DNA of 24,514 nucleotides from a virus. The stretch spans positions 1 through 24,514 of IMG/VR virus record IMGVR_UViG_3300045107_000167; one strand, written 5' to 3'. Below are positions 3,041 to 24,514 of this stretch, piece after piece; positions within the stretch are counted from its first letter, which is position 1, and each line of letters begins with the position of its first letter. Made by a program: the position numbers and the translations under genes. Under the pieces are notes generated by a model. It did no database searches, was not told where the DNA came from, and saw nothing but the letters and a program-made list of their open reading frames with translations.

Positions 3041-3043
3041 ATG
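3024..3043. repeat. 20-bp perfect palindrome of the TGTCCG-N4-CGGACA family
   Basis: CATGTCCGACGTCGGACATG is perfectly self-complementary, and its last three bases are the ATG of the first possible glycosyltransferase start. Its core TGTCCG...CGGACA matches the repeats at 8706, 22210 and 22232 with a different central tetranucleotide. Confidence 0.85.
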
Positions 3044-4066
3044 ACGACGGCCACCAAACATCTCTATTGCTTTTCCTGCCACGCTCTGAGCGACACCATG
3101 CCGAAGTTCCCGCGCACCCTGTTCGTCTACGACGACGCCTCAGCGAGCACGCTGTATCGGCTCGTAATGCCAGCCGAGGCCCTAGCTAATGCTGGCTACC
3201 CAGTAGCACACGGGGCGAGCACCAGCCTTCCGGACATCGTGGTGCGCCAGTACGAGCTTGTCGTGGTTAGTCGCGTCGGCACTGGCGTCAACCAGGCGCT
3301 GGCGGCGATCGAAGGACTGCATGCGGCTGGCATTCGGGTGGCGATCGACTATGACGATGACTTGCTCCACCTACCCCCACACAATCCCGCTTACGGCGTC
3401 GACATCGAGGAACTGAAGGCAGTGCTCCGCGCCGCCGATGGTGTCATCGTCACGAACGCCGCGCTTGCGTCGAGCCTTCGACCGTACGCCAAGCAAATCG
3501 CGATTGTCCCGAACTATGTGCCGGTAAAGCGATGGCCGACACCGCAGCCGCGAGAGGGTATCACGGTCGGCCTGGTGGGGAGCCCGTCGCACGTTGAGGA
3601 CTGGCGGAGCGTCGCCGAACCGATGCGGGCGATCCGGGAGCGATATCCCGACGTGCGGTTCCTGGTCGCCGGCTTCCTGCCTCCCTACTTGCAGAACGTG
3701 GCGACCGAGTACGTCGAGTGGGTCGACATCGGCCGGTACCCGGCACTTGTGAACCGCATCGACATCGGCCTCTGCCCGCTTCAGGATGACCAGTTCAACC
3801 GCTGCAAGACGCCCATCAAGGCGTACGAGTACGCCATGGGCGGCGCTGCTGTTGTTGCATCGCCAACCCAGTATGGCTCGGTCGTTCGCGGCAAGGGGAG
3901 CATCGCCAGAACTGAAGCGGACTGGTTCGCAGCGATCGAGCGCTACATCGTGGACACAGAGAAGCGCCGCAGAGACGCTGATGCTCTACGGCGCTATGTG
4001 CTGACGCTCGACATCACCCGGCACGTCAAAGAGCTTGCCAGGGCATACGCAGAGCTAGGACGCTAA
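3041..4066 (+). CDS. GT-B-fold glycosyltransferase (phage or surface-modification type)
   Basis: Up to 341 residues. The N-terminal half has a Rossmann-like start (RTLFVYDDASASTLYRLVMPAEAL) and a YDDD motif around the inter-domain region. The C-terminal half has GLVGSPSHVEDW and the nucleotide-sugar-binding signature FNRCKTPIKAYEYAMGGAAVVAS, in which the Glu of 'YEYA' contacts the donor sugar in GT4-like enzymes. It probably transfers a sugar to a surface polysaccharide, teichoic acid-like polymer or protein; the acceptor is unknown. The ATG at 3041 lies in a palindrome with no ribosome-binding site, and the first 19 residues look poorly conserved, so the ATG at 3098 (MPKFPRTLFVYDD) is a likely alternative. 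It stands between regulator and late operon, as phage 'moron' cargo often does. Its TAA interlocks with the stop of the convergent gene. Confidence 0.75.
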   Translation: MTTATKHLYCFSCHALSDTMPKFPRTLFVYDDASASTLYRLVMPAEALANAGYPVAHGASTSLPDIVVRQYELVVVSRVGTGVNQALAAIEGLHAAGIRVAIDYDDDLLHLPPHNPAYGVDIEELKAVLRAADGVIVTNAALASSLRPYAKQIAIVPNYVPVKRWPTPQPREGITVGLVGSPSHVEDWRSVAEPMRAIRERYPDVRFLVAGFLPPYLQNVATEYVEWVDIGRYPALVNRIDIGLCPLQDDQFNRCKTPIKAYEYAMGGAAVVASPTQYGSVVRGKGSIARTEADWFAAIERYIVDTEKRRRDADALRRYVLTLDITRHVKELARAYAELGR

Positions 4067-5436: not shown

Positions 5437-5988
5437 ATGACGAACACCGATGAGACTCCCGTGAACGACACCGCGGGAGTCCGTACCGCGCGCCGCAAGA
5501 CTCGCCAGGGCCAGGGCGCCTCCACCAAGCACACCCCGACAACCGAAGACCTGATTATCGATGCGGTGAATGATGGCTGTACGCTGCGGCTCGCGGCCAA
5601 GGCTGGCGGCATCTCGTATGAGACGCTGCGCACCTGGTTACGCGCGGCCGACGACGGCGATGAGCGCTACGTCCCGTTTGCCAAGCGCTTCTACGCAGCC
5701 GAGGCTACAGGAGCGCGCGAGAACTTCAGGAATATCAAGAACGCCGGCGCCAGCGACTGGCGCGCGTCCGCCTGGATCTTGGAGCACCGCTACCCCGAGG
5801 AGTATGGCACCAAGCAGCGCACCGAGCTCAGCGGCCCTGATGGCGGACCAATCGCCGTGAACACCCCCGCATTGGAACAGGCAGCTCAGGAGTTGAACAC
5901 ATGGCGCGAGACGATGGCAGCCTCGCTGTCGAGCTTGCTAAGTGTGCCGCCGACGCTGCCTACTTCACCCACGGATACGGAGTCATAG
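5437..5988 (+). CDS. terS: Terminase small subunit
   Basis: A 183-residue protein expected to recognise the packaging site and load the large subunit. Residues 37-70 (TEDLIIDAVNDGCTLRLAAKAGGISYETLRTWLRA) form the N-terminal helix-turn-helix found in small terminases, and ARENFRNIKNAGASDWRASAWILEHRYPEEYG is the conserved central region of this family, seen in many Gram-positive phages. A low-complexity Ala/Ser/Thr/Pro tail follows. GGGAG lies upstream of the ATG. The last 88 bases overlap the large-subunit gene in another frame, an unusually long overlap for this pair. Confidence 0.85.
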   Translation: MTNTDETPVNDTAGVRTARRKTRQGQGASTKHTPTTEDLIIDAVNDGCTLRLAAKAGGISYETLRTWLRAADDGDERYVPFAKRFYAAEATGARENFRNIKNAGASDWRASAWILEHRYPEEYGTKQRTELSGPDGGPIAVNTPALEQAAQELNTWRETMAASLSSLLSVPPTLPTSPTDTES

Positions 5989-7382
5989 ACGACGCGCAAG
6001 GCAGCGGCACCGGCCAGATGCCCTTCCACCTCTGGCCGGCACAGACCCACGTCATGTGGTCGCTGATGCTCCACCGACTGGCGATCATCCTCAAAGCCCG
6101 ACAGCTCGGCATCAGCTGGCTCTGCTGCTCCTATGCGCTGTGGCTGTGCCTGTTCCATCCCGGCAAGGTCGTCCTACTCTTCTCGAAAGGGCAGACCGAG
6201 GCGAACGAGCTCCTTCGGCGCATCAAGGTTCTCTACCAGCGGCTCCCCGACTGGATGCGCGACACTCTGCCCTCGCTCACCAAGGACAACACCAGCGAGG
6301 TCGGCTGGGCCAACGGTAGCCGCATCCAGAGCCTACCGGCCACGCAGAGCGCCGGACGTTCGCTGACCGCTTCGCTGGTCGTCATGGACGAAGCCGCGTT
6401 CCTCCAGTGGGCCGACGCGCTATACACCGCGGTCAAGCCCACAATCGATGGCGGAGGGCAGCTGATAATCCTCTCGACAGCGAACGGGATTGGCAACCTG
6501 TTCCACCAGCTGTGGCTGAACGCCGTCGCCGGCCGGAACGACTTCAAGACGCTGTTCCTACCCTGGTGGGCACGCCCCGGCCGCGATCATGCCTGGTACC
6601 AGCGGCAACTCGCCGAATACACCGACCCTCGGATGGTCAAGCAGGAGTACCCTGCATCAGCCACCGAGGCGTTCCTGGTGTCGGGCCGGACGAGGTTTCA
6701 GCAGGAATGGGTCGAACGCCAGCAGGCAGCGCCGCTCCTTCCCCTCCCTGTCGATCTAAAAGCCATCCCCAATCTCCGCCTCTATAAGCTGCCTGAGCCC
6801 GGACGCCGCTATGTGCTTGGCGCCGATGTGGCAGAGGGCACGATCGCCGGCGACTACTCAGCTGGTGTGCTGATTGACGCTGAGACCTGGGAAGAGATGG
6901 CCTGCCTGGTCGGCCACTGGGAGCCGGACGAATACGCCGGCTACCTGCACACGCTGGCCGACTTCTACCATGCCGAGCTTGCCCCCGAGCGCAACAACCA
7001 CGGCCATGCGGTCCTCACGACCCTGAAGGCGCTGGGATGTCGACGGGTCGCCGAAGGGGCGGATGGCAAGCTCGGCTGGCTCACGAACGCGCAGACCAAG
7101 CCGCAGGCGATCGACCTTCTGGCGACTGCGCTGCGCGACGGGCTCTGCCAGGTCCGCACCCAGTCGGCGATCGATGAACTGCTGATCTACCGGATCGATG
7201 ACAAGGGCAATACTAATGCGCCGATCGGGTACCACGATGACCTGGTGATGTCGTGGGCGATTGCACTCAGCGTTGCCCGCCGACCGTCAAGCATCAAGGC
7301 GGAAGTGACCAAGAACCCCTTCTACAGCGGCAAGCGCACGACACGCCCGAGCGCCTGGGACGCATTCAAGGAACGCCGATGA
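5901..7382 (+). CDS. terL: Terminase large subunit (ATPase and nuclease)
   Basis: A 493-residue DNA-packaging motor. The ATPase half shows a degenerate Walker A (KARQLGISW, 65-73), Walker B with catalytic Glu (LVVMDEAAF, 159-167) and coupling motif (ILSTANG, 190-196). The RNase H-like nuclease half shows GADVAEG (D309), ERNNHG (363-368) and YHDDLVMSWA (acidic pair at 446-447). All key residues are present and the length is normal, so it is likely functional. CAGGAG (5887-5892) eight bases before the ATG supports this start despite the overlap with terS. Its TGA overlaps the portal ATG by four bases. Confidence 0.95.
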   Translation: MARDDGSLAVELAKCAADAAYFTHGYGVIDDAQGSGTGQMPFHLWPAQTHVMWSLMLHRLAIILKARQLGISWLCCSYALWLCLFHPGKVVLLFSKGQTEANELLRRIKVLYQRLPDWMRDTLPSLTKDNTSEVGWANGSRIQSLPATQSAGRSLTASLVVMDEAAFLQWADALYTAVKPTIDGGGQLIILSTANGIGNLFHQLWLNAVAGRNDFKTLFLPWWARPGRDHAWYQRQLAEYTDPRMVKQEYPASATEAFLVSGRTRFQQEWVERQQAAPLLPLPVDLKAIPNLRLYKLPEPGRRYVLGADVAEGTIAGDYSAGVLIDAETWEEMACLVGHWEPDEYAGYLHTLADFYHAELAPERNNHGHAVLTTLKALGCRRVAEGADGKLGWLTNAQTKPQAIDLLATALRDGLCQVRTQSAIDELLIYRIDDKGNTNAPIGYHDDLVMSWAIALSVARRPSSIKAEVTKNPFYSGKRTTRPSAWDAFKERR

Positions 7383-8758
7383 ACATCACTGCGCAGCTCT
7401 GGCGCGACCGACAGGATGCCGAGCGGGACGCCCGACTGGCACGGATCAAGCGCGCCGTCGACTACTACGAGGGCCGCCATACCCCGCAGCTCGATACCGA
7501 GGACGGCGACTACAACGACAACGTGATCGTCAATCTCGCCCGACCGATCGTTGATCGCGGCGTGGCGTTCCTCTTCGGCAAAGAGCTGACCTGGCAGATC
7601 GATGAGACCGTCACCGGCGACACCAAGCTCGAAACCTTCCTGAAGCGGGTCTGGAAGGCGAACAAGAAGATGGTGCTGCTGCAGGAGGTCGCGCAGAACG
7701 GCGCGTTGTCCGGCATGGCCTTCGTCAAGATCGACCCACAGCCGGACAGCACCTACCGCCTGATTAACCTCGATCCGGCGACCGTCACGGTCTCCCATAG
7801 CCCCCAGGATATCGAGGACGTGTGGCGCTACCGAATCGAGTACACCGCCGCCGACGAGAACGGGCGCGAGGTTCACTACCGGCAGGACACCGAGCGACTA
7901 GACCCCAAGAATCGGCAGAGCCACTGGGTTATCCGCAGTTATGAGGCTAGCGGTGCCGGCGCACGCTACGTCAAGGTCGGCGATGACGTCGCCTGGAAGT
8001 ATCCGTGGCCACCGATCGCGCACTGCAAGAACCTGCCGGCCGCGAACCAGGTCTGGGGCTACGCCGATCTTGACGACACTGCGCTTCACGACGCACTCAA
8101 CCTGATCGCCTCAGCCATGCGCCGCACACTGCGGCTTCACGCGCACCCGCAGACGATCATCTTCGGCGCAGCGGCCGATGGTCTGGAGCGCGGCCCAGCC
8201 AATATGTGGGCCTTCCCCGATGCTCCCGACGCGCGGGCCGAGAACCTGGAGATGCAGAGCGATCTGGCAGCTGCCAAAGAGTTTTATCTGACGCTGCGCA
8301 ACGCGATCTACACCACCGCACGGATGCCCGATATGGCAGCGATCCAGGACAAGCTCGGCAACATGACCAACTTCGGGCTGCGAGTGCTGTTTGCCGATCT
8401 GCTGCAGAAGAACGAGCTCAAGCGACTGCTCTACGGCGACCTGGTTGAGACCCTGTGTAAGCGCCTCGCTGAGTTGGGCGGCTTTGGAACAGACATCGAC
8501 CTCGCGCTGACATGGCAGGACCCGCTGCCGGTCAATACGCTAGAGAAGGCCAACGAGGTCACGGTCAAGCAGAAGACCGGTCTAGCCTCGGATGAGACGC
8601 TGACTGGCGAACTTGGTTACACCTACCAGGATGAGCAGATCCGGCGTACTGCCGAAGGGCATCCCAAGGCGCCGGCCGCATCGAGCAACGCAGACGCACA
8701 CCCGGTGTCCGTTAACGGACAACCCCCTGTTGATCATGCTGGCCAGGCGCCAGCATAA
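7379..8758 (+). CDS. Portal protein, SPP1 gp6-like
   Basis: A 459-residue protein forming the dodecameric vertex through which DNA is packaged and to which the neck attaches. RIKRAVDYYEGRHTPQL, then NVIVNLARPIVDRGVAFLFGKEL, is the N-terminal signature of the SPP1-type portal family, and NMTNFGLRVLFADLLQKNELKR matches its C-terminal helical part. The ATG at 7379 is chosen because it forms an ATGA overlap with the terL stop and AAGGA precedes it by six bases; the frame stays open upstream, but that part is terL shadow. The last ~20 codons include an in-frame copy of the TGTCCGTTAACGGACA palindrome, read as VSVNGQ, in a disordered tail. Confidence 0.9.
   Translation: MNITAQLWRDRQDAERDARLARIKRAVDYYEGRHTPQLDTEDGDYNDNVIVNLARPIVDRGVAFLFGKELTWQIDETVTGDTKLETFLKRVWKANKKMVLLQEVAQNGALSGMAFVKIDPQPDSTYRLINLDPATVTVSHSPQDIEDVWRYRIEYTAADENGREVHYRQDTERLDPKNRQSHWVIRSYEASGAGARYVKVGDDVAWKYPWPPIAHCKNLPAANQVWGYADLDDTALHDALNLIASAMRRTLRLHAHPQTIIFGAAADGLERGPANMWAFPDAPDARAENLEMQSDLAAAKEFYLTLRNAIYTTARMPDMAAIQDKLGNMTNFGLRVLFADLLQKNELKRLLYGDLVETLCKRLAELGGFGTDIDLALTWQDPLPVNTLEKANEVTVKQKTGLASDETLTGELGYTYQDEQIRRTAEGHPKAPAASSNADAHPVSVNGQPPVDHAGQAPA
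8706..8721. repeat. Palindromic repeat TGTCCGTTAACGGACA, copy within the portal 3' end
   Basis: Perfect 16-bp palindrome identical to the copies at 22210-22225 and 22232-22247. It lies in-frame in the last codons of the portal gene. Confidence 0.9.
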
Positions 8759-8767
8759 GGAGCACCA

Positions 8768-9253
8768 ATGGACCCGAACGATACTGAGGTTGCCTCCCAG
8801 GTGGAGGCGCCCCAGGCCGACGCGCCCCAGGCGGGCGAGCCGGACACCACCGAGATCTCCCGCCTGCAGAAAGAGATTGCCGACCTCCGTAAGGAGAACG
8901 CGAAGCACCGGACGGCTAACAAAGAGGCCGAGCGCCGAGCTGCAGAGGAGACGGGACAGTTCAAGACCCTGTATGAGCAGAGCACTGCGGAGCTAGAACA
9001 GCTGCGCGGCGAGATCGCCAGGCGCGATCGTGAGACCCTGCTCACTAAGGTTGCCAGCAAGCATGGTCTGCCCGACGATCTGCGGCCGTTCATCACGGCT
9101 ACGGATGAGGCCGGCATGGAGGAGCAAGCCAAGACCCTGGCGAAGCGTATCGCTCCTGCCCCGCCTTCCACCGGTGCGACCAACCCCGGACGCGGCACCG
9201 ATGCGCCGCGTTCAGCGCCGAAGCACCGCGGCATTCGCGGCATCGGCGACTAA
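8768..9253 (+). CDS. Capsid scaffolding protein
   Basis: A 161-residue protein between portal and major capsid, the usual scaffold position in SPP1-like phages. Residues 28-90 (ISRLQKEIADLRKENAKHRTANKEAERRAAEE...) are a strong predicted coiled coil; the N-terminus is acidic and Pro/Ala-rich, and the tail ends in a basic PKHRGIRGIGD that may bind capsid. This resembles DUF4355/gp20-type scaffolds. AAGGAG lies seven bases before the ATG. No separate prohead protease gene is seen, so scaffold release without proteolysis is likely. Confidence 0.85.
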   Translation: MDPNDTEVASQVEAPQADAPQAGEPDTTEISRLQKEIADLRKENAKHRTANKEAERRAAEETGQFKTLYEQSTAELEQLRGEIARRDRETLLTKVASKHGLPDDLRPFITATDEAGMEEQAKTLAKRIAPAPPSTGATNPGRGTDAPRSAPKHRGIRGIGD

Positions 9254-9284
9254 CCGAAGCACACACTGAGGAGTTTTCTCTACC

Positions 9285-10184
9285 ATGGCCAACAATCTCG
9301 CCGCTTTCAACGCCCAGGCGTGGTCGAAGCGCCTGCTCAAGAACCTCGACCAGATCAATATCATGCTGCCGCTGGTCAACACTGACTACGAGGGTGAGCT
9401 GCAGGGCGTCGGCGACACCGTTCAGGTCCGCACGCTGGGCTCGATCTCGGGCGGCGCCTACTCCGGGTCGATCAGCTACCAGGACCTGGCGCCGGTGAAG
9501 GAGCCCTTTACCGTCTCGGACACCTGGTACTTCGCCTTCAAGGTCTCGGATATCGAGAAGGCGCAGACCGACATCGACGTGATGGACAGCTACACTCAGC
9601 GCGCTGCGATCGCGATGAGCAACGAGGTCGAGCGGAAGCTGCTGAGCCGCTACACGTCGACGCTGACCGCGAACCGCATCACCGGCGCGTCCGGCGCGGC
9701 GATTGCGCTCGACTCGGGCACGACCGCGCTGCAGGGCATCTACCCGGTCTTCGTGGAGGCGCGTGCCCGCCTGTCGAAGCAGAACGTGCCGGCGCAGGGC
9801 CGCTGGTTCGTAGTCGACCCTGACACCACCAGCCTCCTGCTGAACGACACCGCGCACTTCATCAAGGCCACCGACCTCGGTGACGCGATGGTGCGGAACG
9901 GCAATCTGGCCGGCGCTGAGGCGCTGCTGGGGAGCCCCGGCTTCATTGGCCGCTGCGCTGGGTTCGACGTGTACGAGTGCAACCACATCCCGACCAGCGG
10001 CGGCGCGAAGTACCTCCAGTACGGCACGCGCCTGGCGATCTCCTACGCCGCGCAGATTGTCGAGATGGAGGCCATCCGGCTGCAGGACAGCTTCGACACC
10101 GCTGTCCGCGGTCTACTGCTGCACGACAGCGTGGTATTCGCAGAGGCCAGCAAGGCGTACGGCTACGTCAAGGCTGCGGCTTAG
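9285..10184 (+). CDS. Major capsid protein (HK97 fold)
   Basis: A 299-residue protein. The order TerL-portal-scaffold-this gene, the N-terminal NTDYEGELQGVGDTVQVRTL strand motif, a long spine-helix region (SYTQRAAIAMSNEVERKLLSRY, about 100-121) and the C-terminal region GLLLHDSVVFAE match HK97-fold coat proteins of the P22/phi29-like no-protease group. A GAGGAG-type site precedes the ATG at a rather long spacing of about eleven bases. Codon use is strongly biased to G/C-ending codons, as expected for the most expressed phage gene. A hairpin directly follows the stop. Confidence 0.9.
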   Translation: MANNLAAFNAQAWSKRLLKNLDQINIMLPLVNTDYEGELQGVGDTVQVRTLGSISGGAYSGSISYQDLAPVKEPFTVSDTWYFAFKVSDIEKAQTDIDVMDSYTQRAAIAMSNEVERKLLSRYTSTLTANRITGASGAAIALDSGTTALQGIYPVFVEARARLSKQNVPAQGRWFVVDPDTTSLLLNDTAHFIKATDLGDAMVRNGNLAGAEALLGSPGFIGRCAGFDVYECNHIPTSGGAKYLQYGTRLAISYAAQIVEMEAIRLQDSFDTAVRGLLLHDSVVFAEASKAYGYVKAAA

Positions 10185-10186
10185 GA

Positions 10187-10202
10187 TGTCCATTCACGGA
10201 CA
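10187..10202. repeat. Degenerate copy of the TGTCCG palindrome (14 of 16)
   Basis: TGTCCATTCACGGACA differs from TGTCCGTTAACGGACA at two positions and begins two bases after the major capsid stop. Its right half is also the left arm of the 10196-10229 hairpin. Confidence 0.6.
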
Positions 10203-10229
10203 GACCTCGTTTCGGCGGGGTCTGTCCGT
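10196..10229 (+). terminator. Hairpin after the major capsid gene (partial terminator or 3' stabiliser)
   Basis: ACGGACAGACC (10196-10206) pairs perfectly with GGTCTGTCCGT (10219-10229), 11 bp with a 12-nt loop, followed by TTCC. It could terminate part of the transcription or protect the upstream mRNA end, raising capsid protein over downstream products. The left arm is shared with the palindrome, so two mutually exclusive pairings exist. Confidence 0.55.
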
Positions 10230-10246
10230 TTCCACAGGAGGTAGAG

Positions 10247-10816
10247 GTGGACATCCGGGACACTATGACCGATCTGATCGGCCGAGTCGCGGCGCTGGTG
10301 AACAACGATCCGCTGCTCCCTGCCGAAACCATCCAGAACATGCTGGACAGCCACGCTCGCGAGCTGGTGCAGGTGCCGCTCACACCCACGCCGCCTTTCT
10401 ACCGGAAGCACACCAGCCCCTACGGCAATCTGGAAACAGGCGCGATCGTGTATGTCGGGTACAACCAGCAGCTCACGGTCGATACCGACTACACGATCGA
10501 CTTGCTCAGAGGCATCGTCACCACACCAGCGGCCGAGTATCGTCGGCTATTCCTGCAAGGCACCGCCTACGACGTCTACGGGGCGGCGGCGGACCTCTGG
10601 ATGGTAATCGCCGCGCGATCGGTTGAGAAGGTGGATGTCCAGAGCGGCAAGACCAGCTTATCGCGCTCGCAGGAGTATGAGCACGCGCTGAACATGTCCA
10701 AGCGCTACCGTGCGCTGGCATGGGGAGTAACCACCAAAGCGCTCCGCTCGGACACCACTGGCCGCGGCACAACCCCTGAGCAGGTGCTACAGGACTTCAA
10801 GAGGAACCACCAATGA
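10247..10816 (+). CDS. Head-tail connector (adaptor-position) protein
   Basis: A 189-residue protein starting at GTG 10247, preceded by AGGAGG (10236-10241) at five bases; the frame stays open far upstream through the capsid gene, but that part is shadow. An internal ATG at 10265 is a weaker alternative. The helical N- and C-termini and a YVGYNQQLTVDTDYTIDLLRGIVTTPAA beta segment fit the gp15/gp6-type head-completion adaptors found directly after the capsid gene. Assignment rests mainly on position; I cannot name a specific family. Confidence 0.65.
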   Translation: MDIRDTMTDLIGRVAALVNNDPLLPAETIQNMLDSHARELVQVPLTPTPPFYRKHTSPYGNLETGAIVYVGYNQQLTVDTDYTIDLLRGIVTTPAAEYRRLFLQGTAYDVYGAAADLWMVIAARSVEKVDVQSGKTSLSRSQEYEHALNMSKRYRALAWGVTTKALRSDTTGRGTTPEQVLQDFKRNHQ

Positions 10817-11181
10817 GCATCGCAGACGAGATTGCTGCCGCGATGGCAGATCTCCAGGCGGCTGCTCAGGAGTTCATGCGCGACGCCTGTACCATCTCCG
10901 CTCGCACCGACACCACCGTCAACGGCGTCACCAAGCCGATTTACGGTGCGCCAATCACAACGGCGTGCCAGTGGATCGCCGATGAGAACGGCGTGGAGCT
11001 GGTCGACGGCACGCTACGGCTGGTCTCTGAGGCCCGCGCGACGGTGCTGCTGCCGCGTGGAATCGCGGTCACTGCGCGCGACCTGGTGACGTTTGGGGGC
11101 CGGAAGTGGGATGTGCTGATCGCCTCTCCTGTCGATCATCTCACAGCATACCAAACCATCCGCGTCAAGGAGACGAAATGA
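10813..11181 (+). CDS. Head-closure/stopper protein
   Basis: A 122-residue, beta-rich protein. The pattern ACTISARTDTTVNGVTKPIYG...RDLVTFGGRKWDVLIASPVDHLTAYQTIRVKE resembles SPP1 gp16-like stoppers (head-tail joining proteins), where 'tpvD...yq.i.l' is the typical C-terminal strand. ATGA overlap with the preceding gene and AGAGGAA upstream support the start. Confidence 0.7.
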   Translation: MSIADEIAAAMADLQAAAQEFMRDACTISARTDTTVNGVTKPIYGAPITTACQWIADENGVELVDGTLRLVSEARATVLLPRGIAVTARDLVTFGGRKWDVLIASPVDHLTAYQTIRVKETK

Positions 11182-21795: not shown

Positions 21796-22206
21796 ATGTC
21801 CGAGATGAACCAATCCGACCACGACGCGCTCATCCGCCTGCAGGCATCGCTGGAGGCGCACAGCCAGCGCGAGAGCGAGGTCAGTCGTGCCACCCTGGCC
21901 GAAGTTTCCAAGATGTCGGCTAAGCTCGACCAGATGCGCGAGGCGTACCTAGAGCATAACCGCGACATCCGTGACCTGAAGGCACGCCAGGGGGATGCCG
22001 ACCTGCGCATCGCGACTCTTGAACAGCAGGTGGATACCCTGCAGGACGACTCAGAGCAAGCCGAGCGGGTCAACAAGGCACTGGCATCGGAGAGCGACAA
22101 GCGGGCGAAGCGCTACGCCTGGATCGCCGTGGTCGCCAGCCCGATCGTCGGCATCGTCGTACCCGTGGTGTTCCGCTGGCTCATCGCGTTGCTCGCCGGC
22201 GCGTGA
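21796..22206 (+). CDS. XhlA-like membrane-associated protein (holin accessory candidate)
   Basis: A 136-residue protein. Residues 8-106 are a charged coiled coil (LKARQGDADLRIATLEQQVDT), and residues 108-135 form one hydrophobic helix (AWIAVVASPIVGIVVPVVFRWLIALLAGA). This is the XhlA/hemolysin layout found at the end of late operons next to holin and endolysin genes. A weak ribosome-binding site (GGTGAAG) precedes the ATG. No endolysin follows: the operon terminator is within 80 bases. Confidence 0.65.
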   Translation: MSEMNQSDHDALIRLQASLEAHSQRESEVSRATLAEVSKMSAKLDQMREAYLEHNRDIRDLKARQGDADLRIATLEQQVDTLQDDSEQAERVNKALASESDKRAKRYAWIAVVASPIVGIVVPVVFRWLIALLAGA

Positions 22207-22209
22207 CGA

Positions 22210-22247
22210 TGTCCGTTAACGGACAACACGATGTCCGTTAACGGACA
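22210..22247. repeat. Tandem pair of TGTCCGTTAACGGACA palindromes
   Basis: Two identical 16-bp palindromes at 22210-22225 and 22232-22247, each preceded by CGA and repeated with a 22-bp period, about two helical turns. They lie between the last late gene and the operon terminator. The same sequence occurs at 8706-8721. Confidence 0.9.
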
Positions 22248-22281
22248 GCCGCCCCTACCGAGATTTGGTGGGGGCGGTTTT
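22248..22281 (+). terminator. Rho-independent terminator of the late operon
   Basis: CCGCCCCTACC (22249-22259) pairs with GGTGGGGGCGG (22267-22277), one G-U, a seven-base loop, then TTTT (22278-22281). It is oriented to stop rightward transcription. The stop codon of the leftward NACHT gene falls in its left arm, at 22255-22257. Confidence 0.8.
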
Positions 22282-24195
22282 GATTCCCTCGACAAGGTGG
22301 GTTTGCTCATCAGAGGTGAGGCTGGCGAAATACTCAAGGAGAGACCGGTGAATGAATATGTATCCGCCGCCGACTTTGCGCAGTAGAATGCAGTCGGCAC
22401 AAGAGTTCAGGAAGAGGGCAAGCTTCAAGGGTAGAAGGCCAGCACGATAAAGCATAAGACGAAGCACAATGTGTTGTAGAACCGCGATTCCGCCATACGT
22501 GACCCCTGCGCGCAGCCCCAAGACTAGCCCGATGCTCAGCACTGCGATCGGGACGTAGGTCGGCCCAACGGCTAGCTCGTAGATCGGCTGAATGACCGTG
22601 CCGGAGACCAGCCCTAAGATTAGTCCAATGACCAGCCACAGGAGCAACACCATAACCGCATTCATTCCTGATCGCCATATACTCTCATTTGGACTGTTTT
22701 TGGTTGTCAGCATACCATTCCTCAACCCATTCGCCACCCCAACGATCAGTCCCATGAGCAGCCCTATGGCCAGCACTTCGACCAGTACTCCGACTGGCCC
22801 TTTAACCAGCCCATTAACCAGCCCTTTAACCAACTCGTACACAAGCCCGAAAGTCAGTCCTATGACCAGCCCGGAGATTAGCCCTCGCCTTGCTTCTCGC
22901 CAGGACCAGGCGAGCATCTCTGTAGGTTTAATAGTAACCAGCCCTTTGCCAAGCCCGAAGAGCAACCCGTACTCCAGCCCGCAGACCAGCCCTCCAAACA
23001 CCCCCGCGACCAAACCGAACGCGGGCCCCATGGCCAGCACATTCCCCAGTCCATGCACCAGCCATAAGAGCAACACAAGATTATTTCTGTAAATTCGTTC
23101 TTTATATTGTGGAATCCAAGAAGGTTGCATGTTCTCAATGAAATACACCGACTGCGACTCGTGAACCATCTGTCCTGCCAACCACGAGAGCCACCGAACC
23201 ACTCGCTGAGGAGCATAGCGATCACTGCCACGACGCTGTAGCATGCGTCGAACATAGGCAGCGAACACACGCGAGCGCTGCTCTGCGATTGACTCCATCA
23301 CCGGTAGCTCATCAATCGGCGCCCCCTGATACGCCAGAGTCAAGATGCTCAGCATCAGCGGCGTCTCAAGCATCTCTTGGAGGACGGTGTCAGCCTGGAG
23401 GAGTGTCCGAAGCGCTTCGAGCTCAGCGCGCACAAGATAGGCGTCAATTTGCTCCGCCGTGAGTGTCTGTACCTGAACGGCGGTCTGCAGTTTGAGCGGC
23501 GCCGTGAGCGCCTCGTAGTCGGCGACGCGACTGCACGCCACGATGCGCGCCATACCGTGCATACTACGAAACGCATTGATGGCCGCGACACAGGCATTGC
23601 GATGTTCCGCCTGAACTTCGTCGAGGCCATCGAGCATCAGCAGGATGAGATCATCGGCAACCCACTCTCTACCGAGCTTCCTCGTTACGCCATAGCCAGT
23701 ATTCAGCTCTTCGACCAACCACACATCCAGCGCCTTGCGCTCCCTTGCCCACGATGACAGGTTGAACACCACCGGCATCGGCATGCTGTCGTCTTGTTCT
23801 GCCTGCAAGATAAGATCGCGAGCGAGTTCCAGAAGAGTTGTCGTCTTACCCGAGCCCGGCGCACCGAGGATCAACAACTCACCGCCAGCGTCTTTGAAGA
23901 CATCGGCAATGCGCGTACCAGGCGGTAGTGACTCACTGCGGTCGTACTCGCGGCGAACCATGCCCCAGGGGCGATCAACGGCGTCGGGGCGCTCCTCCAT
24001 GTTCAGCGCGATCAGCACTTCCTTGTAGAGCGACTTTTCGAGGACACCCTGAACCCACGTCACACGCACCTTCTCAAGCATCGTGCGACGATCACGCTTT
24101 TGACGCGCATCCAATACAGGCGGCTGGTGAAAATGAATATCACCAGCCGCGTTGTACTGCGTACCTACCTGCTGATTGCGCTGATCAAACGTCAC
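22255..24195 (-). CDS. NACHT NTPase with C-terminal GLxx-repeat membrane domain (candidate anti-phage protein)
   Basis: A 646-residue protein. The N-terminus has VGTQYNAAGDIHF, a short beta motif I associate with NACHT- and TIR-type conflict proteins. Residues 107-118 hold Walker A (LLILGAPGSGKT), 183-194 the NACHT Walker B (LILLMLDGLDEV), and 216-228 a sensor strand ending in ACSRVADYE. From about residue 370 onward most of the chain is hydrophobic with a four-residue GLxx period, e.g. GLVYELVKGLVNGLVKG, in three blocks, and it ends with GGGYIFIHRSLLEYFASL. It likely oligomerises on sensing a trigger and acts on the membrane, as in bacterial STAND/NACHT defence proteins. Start: GTG at 24195, in a GTGA overlap with the upstream ORF, hence translational coupling. 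It stands opposite the late operon. Activity is inferred; whether the prophage or a separate island owns it is unclear. Confidence 0.85.
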   Translation of the reverse strand: MTFDQRNQQVGTQYNAAGDIHFHQPPVLDARQKRDRRTMLEKVRVTWVQGVLEKSLYKEVLIALNMEERPDAVDRPWGMVRREYDRSESLPPGTRIADVFKDAGGELLILGAPGSGKTTTLLELARDLILQAEQDDSMPMPVVFNLSSWARERKALDVWLVEELNTGYGVTRKLGREWVADDLILLMLDGLDEVQAEHRNACVAAINAFRSMHGMARIVACSRVADYEALTAPLKLQTAVQVQTLTAEQIDAYLVRAELEALRTLLQADTVLQEMLETPLMLSILTLAYQGAPIDELPVMESIAEQRSRVFAAYVRRMLQRRGSDRYAPQRVVRWLSWLAGQMVHESQSVYFIENMQPSWIPQYKERIYRNNLVLLLWLVHGLGNVLAMGPAFGLVAGVFGGLVCGLEYGLLFGLGKGLVTIKPTEMLAWSWREARRGLISGLVIGLTFGLVYELVKGLVNGLVKGPVGVLVEVLAIGLLMGLIVGVANGLRNGMLTTKNSPNESIWRSGMNAVMVLLLWLVIGLILGLVSGTVIQPIYELAVGPTYVPIAVLSIGLVLGLRAGVTYGGIAVLQHIVLRLMLYRAGLLPLKLALFLNSCADCILLRKVGGGYIFIHRSLLEYFASLTSDEQTHLVEGIKTAPTKSR

Positions 24196-24399
24196 GAGAA
24201 GTACTTCTGTACCGCCTCCGCTGCAGCGATCATTCCAGTCACGAGCCCACCCGCGGCTCCTACAGTCTCGATCAGCTTCTTGGCACTTTCGATGCGCTCA
24301 AGAATGGTCTGCTTCTTTGGCTCTGGCTTCTTGGCTTCCTGAACCGCCTTGGTGATCTGATACTCAGCGTCGGTGACTACCTCAGCGTCGATGACATTA
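24192..24399 (-). pseudogene. 5'-truncated small helical partner gene coupled to the NACHT gene
   Basis: From 24395 leftward, 67 codons read VIDAEVVTDAEYQITKAVQE, then AKKPEPKKQT, ILERIESAKK, LIETVGAAGG, LVTGMIAAAE and AVQKYFS, ending in TGA at 24194-24192. The stop shares GTGA with the NACHT start, strong evidence that both are real. The protein ends in an amphipathic or hydrophobic helix (about 41-66), reminiscent of the small helical proteins preceding NACHT genes in Chloroflexota and cyanobacteria. There is no ATG, GTG or TTG start in this frame before about 24399, beyond which the frame continues into sequence that looks like IS end and is open to the window edge. It therefore seems cut by the adjacent insertion, not merely mispredicted. 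Confidence 0.6.
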
Positions 24400-24514
24400 G
24401 ACTTAATCGGAAATAAAGCAGCTATGGTATGATGGCGATCCTGATCGAGAACAGCGGAGGATTGAGATGCTGACGTTCGAGCGGATTGCCACCAAGCCCC
24501 TCGTGTTCCAAATG
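24400..24514 (+). mobile_element. Left end of an IS5-like insertion sequence (truncated by window edge)
   Basis: The sequence after TTA (24397-24399), starting GACTTAATCGG, marks where NACHT-partner coding texture stops, and a transposase-like gene follows at 24467. The exact boundary is a guess, because the matching terminal repeat lies outside the window. A -10-like TATGAT is at 24428-24433. Confidence 0.4.
24467..24514 (+). CDS. Transposase N-terminus (DDE, IS5-like), partial
   Basis: Sixteen codons, MLTFERIATKPLVFQM, running off the window edge. The start has an excellent ribosome-binding site, GGAGG (24456-24460), six bases before the ATG. The wording 'MLT(Y/F)E.I...P..F' is the usual N-terminus of transposases with a DDE_Tnp_4 domain in IS5-family elements. 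The evidence is short, so the family is tentative. Confidence 0.5.
   Translation, partial: MLTFERIATKPLVFQM

Follow-up and report, generated by a model that had tools for sequence, protein, structure and literature searches.

Genomic context of the NACHT gene

The window analyzed here is a linear IMG/VR virus contig of 24,514 bases (record IMGVR_UViG_3300045107_000167). A late operon on its plus strand runs from the terminase gene (5437) through the portal, major head protein and tail genes to a tail fibre of 1025 aa with a peptidase S74 chaperone and, finally, a protein that combines a coiled coil with a transmembrane (TM) segment. On the opposite strand, a NACHT gene ends 48 bp beyond the last late ORF; the two are thus arranged tail-to-tail (convergently) and not back-to-back, as an earlier interpretation of this DNA made without database searches (the sequence-only reading) had placed them. 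The features of this region are as follows.

21796..22206, plus strand: final late gene, 136 aa, coiled coil plus TM; weakly XhlA/holin-like (phrog_1193, E=0.0018)
22247..22279, no strand assigned: strong hairpin over the NACHT stop codon (-27.6 kcal/mol on the plus strand, z -5.1; -19.9 on the minus strand)
22255..24195, minus strand: NACHT gene, 646 aa, GTG start, intact ORF with no internal stop
22321..22440, minus strand: conserved C-terminal module ..FLNSCADCILLRKVGGGYIFIHRSLLEYFA, from the alignment with relatives
22441..23115, minus strand: predicted GLxx-periodic multi-helix membrane region with long hydrophobic helices, residues 361-585
23431..23874, minus strand: NACHT NTPase domain, residues 108-255 (Pfam PF05729, E=4.9e-7, passing the curated threshold)
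24124..24189, minus strand: Gln/Asn/Gly motif FDQRNQQVGTQYNAAGDIHFHQ at the N-terminus (residues 3-24), unstructured by prediction; matches the N-termini of intact partners
24192..24195, minus strand: GTGA overlap of the partner stop (24192-24194) and the NACHT GTG (24193-24195)
24192..24404, minus strand: partner remnant, C-terminal ~70 aa, helical; 44% identical to its Ktedonobacter counterpart (pairwise E=1e-21)
24405..24514, no strand assigned: non-partner sequence to the contig end, with a plus-strand ORF starting at ATG 24467, preceded by GGAGGA (MLTFERIATKPLVFQM)

The hairpin is likely to be a terminator at the convergent junction of the NACHT gene and the late operon. A perfect 16-bp palindrome, TGTCCGTTAACGGACA, is found three times in the window (8706-8721, 22210-22225 and 22232-22247), with a further copy containing two mismatches at 10187-10202; 0.02 matches are expected at up to three mismatches. 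Two of the copies lie just past the last late gene and can be folded into a single long hairpin. The palindrome is possibly a phage operator or a recombination site; it is absent from the related phage locus L161. Furthermore, a phage-encoded glycosyltransferase gene (3041-4066, plus strand; phrog_7162, E=4.7e-32) is located upstream of the packaging genes.

The NACHT protein and its relatives

The NACHT protein of the window contains the Walker A (GAPGSGKTT) and Walker B (LLMLDGLDE) motifs that characterize the NTPases of bNACHT/STAND proteins, and its conserved positions are kept across 43 aligned relatives. The AlphaFold model obtained from these relatives has a mean pLDDT of 88 and an NLR-like fold, with NOD2, NLRC4 and NLRP3 as the top PDB matches (~360 columns); together with the Pfam match, these features bear out the original assignment of a defence-type NACHT gene. 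The proposed GLxx-periodic membrane domain is also supported: residues 361-585 include 20 GL dipeptides compared with 7.0 in shuffled sequences (maximum 16), and 16 G[LIVF] pairs at a spacing of 4 compared with 0.9 (maximum 6; 2000 shuffles). GL richness is common to the family, with a median of 10 GL. Much of the N-terminal ~20 residues is modeled with low confidence (pLDDT <50 at residues 9-19), and this NLR is predicted to begin, as in BASS, with a short unstructured motif. The C-terminus would occupy the sensor position.

Relatives with 30-48% identity to this protein are found in Cyanobacteria, Chloroflexota, Chlorobi, Actinobacteria and other groups, on both chromosomes and plasmids, and genomes of Ktedonobacteria often encode several of them. 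Among 50,697 phage records, no close homologue was detected; in IMG/VR, a search with a single NACHT sequence gave no match and an alignment search gave two weak matches only. At ~90 loci, the core that consists of the NACHT domain, the GL-rich region and the C-terminal region is constant and the N-terminus is exchanged: the slot that holds the motif in the window protein can instead hold a fused effector-like domain. The alternatives are TIR-like, CHAT-like, protein-kinase-like, cyclase-like, HTH, BTAD-like or TM segments, or a short G/N/Q-rich motif; these classes were assigned by eye except where Pfam was run. Fused segments are commoner on this core than the short motif, and their loci lack a matching partner; in the short-motif class, a separate ORF is often located directly upstream.

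The truncated upstream partner

As described earlier from the sequence, the GTG start of the NACHT gene overlaps, by GTGA, a helical ORF upstream of it. This ORF (24192-24512) has no ATG, GTG or TTG start and is open to the end of the contig, which stops 319 bp past the NACHT start; its homology to intact partners ends at about 24404, and the missing half of the partner, sought in all frames of the remaining 110 nt, was not found. Judging from these comparisons, the upstream ORF is a genuine truncation of the partner, with the N-terminal, motif-bearing half gone. The closest intact pair, in a 13.7-Mb genome (G366) that we take to be Ktedonobacter racemifer-like, comprises a partner of 118 aa, 8 nt and then the NACHT gene; the pair occupies 5474-7621 and 7630-7986 of locus L129. 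The window remnant aligns to the last 70 residues of this partner, in agreement with the earlier description of a truncated small helical protein; in addition, the remnant shows 40.6% identity (E=1e-13) to a protein encoded on a 99-kb plasmid of genome G119, presumably Herpetosiphon-like, and matches the C-terminus of the PADLOC model PDC-M14B (E=5.5e-4). The intact Ktedonobacter partner alone connected the remnant to other loci; a phmmer search of the first set of loci with the remnant itself gave no match.

Co-occurrence of the two genes in intact copies, which had been proposed as a check, was thus found in the expected order, the Ktedonobacter partner being directly upstream of a homologous NACHT gene. 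Intact pairs are present in Ktedonobacteria, and cyanobacteria and Anaerolineae have such pairs with other variants of the partner; genome G009 encodes a window-type partner and a NACHT protein with a different motif variant that yet matches within the pair. The proposed two-gene unit therefore exists in relatives, but pairing is not universal, given the fused N-termini without a matching partner. The argument that NACHT homologues regularly lacking an upstream helical ORF would speak against such a unit applies by half, a matching partner being absent at the fused-N-terminus loci. In genome G349, both genes of the pair are broken: other genes, over ~3 kb, lie within the partner, and the NACHT gene is cut by an IS110-like gene. 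This locus (L162, 715-876, 3946-4223 and 4618-5856) is a second decayed copy of the pair. The intact Ktedonobacter pair lies in a mobile context: a tyrosine-recombinase-like gene (L129, 8018-8947) ends 31 bp upstream of it.

A homologous partner of the cyanobacterial type is predicted to have four helices after a disordered motif, and the Ktedonobacterial and window partners have a hydrophobic helix at the end. A Pfam search with the partner gave no confident match, a fold search gave no significant one (best E 0.46), and similarity to PDC-M14B is confined to the C-terminal third of that model instead of extending over its full length, which upholds the view that the partner may be undescribed. 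In our best reading, it is an unnamed helical domain of four helices. The plus-strand ORF at the contig end, with its start at 24467, might belong to an inserted gene; DNA searches in exact, degenerate and similarity modes yielded no relatives of it. An insertion sequence containing this ORF is unsupported as the cause of the partner break, the few matches being chance ones inside unrelated genes.

Motifs shared within pairs

The key link that the sequence-only reading missed is a shared N-terminal motif. The short Gln/Asn/Gly motif with which an intact partner starts is also found at the start of its own NACHT protein (MAQFDQRGQKITGSQYNAGRDIN / MTKFDQRKQRVENQYNAVRDIN; the window NACHT protein has FDQRNQQVGTQYNAAGDIH), and the same relationship is seen, with other motifs, in the pairs of Acaryochloris (SGGQNSNVQIGGIAGGDQTVTQ / SGGVLKDVQIGGVAGRDLEVTQ), Sphaerospermopsis (GGKVQGLTQQNTGTINQSF / GSNIQGFIQENNGTVSQYF) and Tolypothrix (NAQFGGGLVNADTVNAEQIGGNI / NSQFGGGLINAETVNAQRIGGDI). 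The window partner is truncated before the motif, and this feature of BASS, the same motif in the adjacent gene, is readable in the intact relatives. When the upstream ORF was picked by a fixed rule, under which 18 short loci have none, sharing was detected at 16 of the 42 loci with a short N-terminus and at 0 of the 41 loci with a fused (long) domain (Fisher p=5e-6, the surveyed loci not being phylogenetically independent). Over 20 pairs, which were partly picked after the first examples had been seen and some of which represent one motif family, the own-pair motif scores sum to 1550, against a maximum of 1014 in 20,000 permutations (p<=5e-5).

Given that the motifs are G/N/Q-rich and repeat-like, the similarity between neighbours might reflect recent duplication or low-complexity composition instead of functional matching. 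However, composition-preserving shuffles of the N-termini almost never reach the observed scores (0 of 300 in 19 of the 20 pairs), several unrelated motif families each match within their own pair, and the paired proteins are otherwise unrelated outside the motif; this explanation appears very unlikely. Compared with 22 upstream proteins, the window NACHT motif scores highest against precisely the four that are Ktedonobacterial partners, which belong to the same partner family as the window remnant. Given these matches and the alignment of the remnant, the pair is real, and the motif-bearing half of its partner has been lost in the window.

The motif is also found in other combinations. In genome G281, a partner with the motif is followed by an NB-ARC/TPR STAND protein bearing the FDQR motif. 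On the Herpetosiphon-like plasmid (reverse complement of L177, 7081-8117), the motif of a window-type partner recurs in a protein of 220 aa that is not a NACHT protein (NIHQNHAVIGNNYIGQ / NINQDFAHIGTNYIGE). The partner at L032 (3712-4767) has the architecture CHAT-motif-helical and that at L006 (1068-3416) pentapeptide-motif-CHAT, showing effector exchange around one motif. Partners of the window type bear the motif at the N-terminus; a C-terminal position is seen solely in a different type of partner (L003, L044 and L063).

Phage cargo or host flank

The only close relative of the phage end of the window is L161, in which the tail-fibre end is 77% and the holin-like protein 76% identical (the latter also in L178). 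Between the two, the DNA ceases to be similar roughly where the holin-like gene ends, and the position of the window NACHT gene is taken in L161 by a Type ISP restriction-modification gene, likewise convergent (9205-11025; specificity domain, E=9e-77). Because this restriction gene, one example, lies at the same spot, the NACHT/partner pair is probably phage cargo; of the earlier alternatives, carriage by a prophage or insertion beside it, carriage is the likely one.

The distribution of the close NACHT homologues, on bacterial chromosomes and plasmids with virtually no counterparts in the viral data searched, is what would be expected if the locus were host DNA flanking the phage, at a contig edge or prophage boundary, and unrelated to phage biology. 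The GC content, 57-58% in the NACHT region compared with 62-66% in most of the late operon, points in the same direction, but the left-hand phage genes are similar in GC to the NACHT region. Given, in addition, the short distance to the last late ORF, the terminator-like hairpin at the common junction and the arrangement in L161, we consider a host flank possible but somewhat unlikely; it would be compatible with the mechanism proposed below. Two prophage-like loci of genome G119 (L165 and L171) encode a terminase 65% identical to that of the window; nearby matches to the window are limited to the terminase genes, with nothing shown after the holin-like gene. As these loci share the terminase, the sequence hints at a Chloroflexota host for the window phage.

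Proposed function of the pair

Our computations show both genes, the sharing of a motif that is specific to each pair, the use of other effectors in the N-terminal slot and the truncation of the window copy. In our preferred reading, which we hold to be reasonably probable on the strength of these comparisons, the pair would be a BASS-like (amyloid-type) NLR-effector unit with an unusual motif position and a putative membrane effector. The NACHT protein would be a membrane-anchored receptor that oligomerises in an ATP-driven manner, with the GL-rich helices and the conserved C-terminal module in the STAND sensor/anchor position and the unstructured N-terminal motif as the output end; the small upstream partner would consist of a copy of this motif and a bundle of helices. 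Once activated, the NACHT proteins would present their motifs in a cluster, to which the partner motif would be recruited by like-with-like matching. This matching would probably be a templating of the beta/amyloid type, comparable to BASS and HET-S/RHIM and to amyloid immune pairs of fungi and bacteria; the partner, clustered in turn, would act as the effector, probably at the membrane, causing cell death or arrest. We infer the amyloid nature, the membrane killing and the antiphage role of the pair.

In STAND proteins, the effector is located at the N-terminus (PMC12169576). Given that the motif and the separate partner occur where no fused N-terminal domain is present, and that the partners sometimes contain a CHAT protease domain, the motif most likely recruits an effector; by the same token, the lack of a matching partner next to fused segments suggests that the partner fills the effector slot. 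It follows from this logic that the GLxx region, previously suggested to be a permeabilising or anchoring module, is more likely an anchor or a sensor than a killer. Alternatively, the partner could be a folding or regulatory adaptor or an inhibitor of the NACHT protein, with the GL-rich region permeabilising the membrane, as in the earlier model. The conservation of this region across the family fits such a model, and the partner at L032 has the helical domain attached to a CHAT effector, so that killing alone is not required of this domain and it is possibly an adaptor rather than a killer. Conversely, the GL-rich core is also joined to TIR-like and CHAT-like N-termini, which would be redundant if the core itself killed, and partners that share the motif are confined to loci lacking a fused N-terminal domain; the adaptor model thus appears rather unlikely.

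Under the preferred reading, in which the partner is the effector, the window copy is probably inactive because its partner has lost the motif and the start; it would be non-functional, or a sensor without an effector, unless an intact partner is encoded elsewhere. More speculatively, and in our view doubtfully, the locus might represent a phage-borne, superinfection-excluding NLR in which a membrane NACHT protein fires a separate four-helix executioner via a hitherto undescribed N-terminal motif that is matched between the two (FDQRxQxxxxQYNAxxDI). NACHT, NB-ARC/TPR and other sensors could then exchange the cassette of motif and partner, and the uncharacterised PADLOC candidate PDC-M14B would also be explained.

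The front-end motifs, matched pair by pair, suggest a short, testable code by which the NLR sensor of a bacterium is linked to an effector encoded separately; several motif families use it independently, and both the sensors and the effectors can be exchanged. Should the motif template, prion-like immune signalling would also take place in Chloroflexota and include proteins in which the motif is N-terminal, a role would be assigned to an anonymous small protein domain, and the partners of orphan NACHT or NB-ARC genes would become predictable from sequence.

Comparison with known systems

BASS/BELL NLR amyloid signalosomes were reportedly described by Dyrka in 2020. In BASS, adjacent NLR and effector genes encode a common short amyloid motif (PMC7889193). 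The pairs analyzed here resemble BASS/BELL in that the genes are adjacent, the N-terminal motif of the NLR recurs in a small effector protein of the helical-bundle or CHAT/TIR kind, the bacteria are filamentous and several motif families exist. Unlike in canonical BASS, where the motif is C-terminal to BELL, the motif of the window-group partner is N-terminal and precedes the helices, and the partner domain is not known as BELL. Given this difference in motif position, we file the window-type pair as one that would work like BASS, not as a proven member.

With the bNACHT antiphage proteins (PMC12169576), the window protein shares the central NACHT module, the N-terminal effector slot and the C-terminal sensor position; it differs in that the C-terminus is a GL-rich membrane region and not SNaCT or NCH1, and the effector is apparently outsourced to a separate motif-bearing protein. 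The remnant and the intact type-A/Ktedonobacterial partners match the C-terminal ~100 positions of PDC-M14B (E 2e-11 to 1.7e-3) but lack the first ~150 residues of this 267-position model; no published description of PDC-M14 was found, and the 12 genomes searched contained no full-length match. Finally, the homotypic coupling of effectors and STAND sensors through an adaptor is a principle shared with the EAD-based conflict systems (PMC8195603); there, however, EADs and the Death-like adaptors fold into helical domains, whereas the coupler in the window is predicted to be an unstructured G/N/Q motif of ~25 residues.
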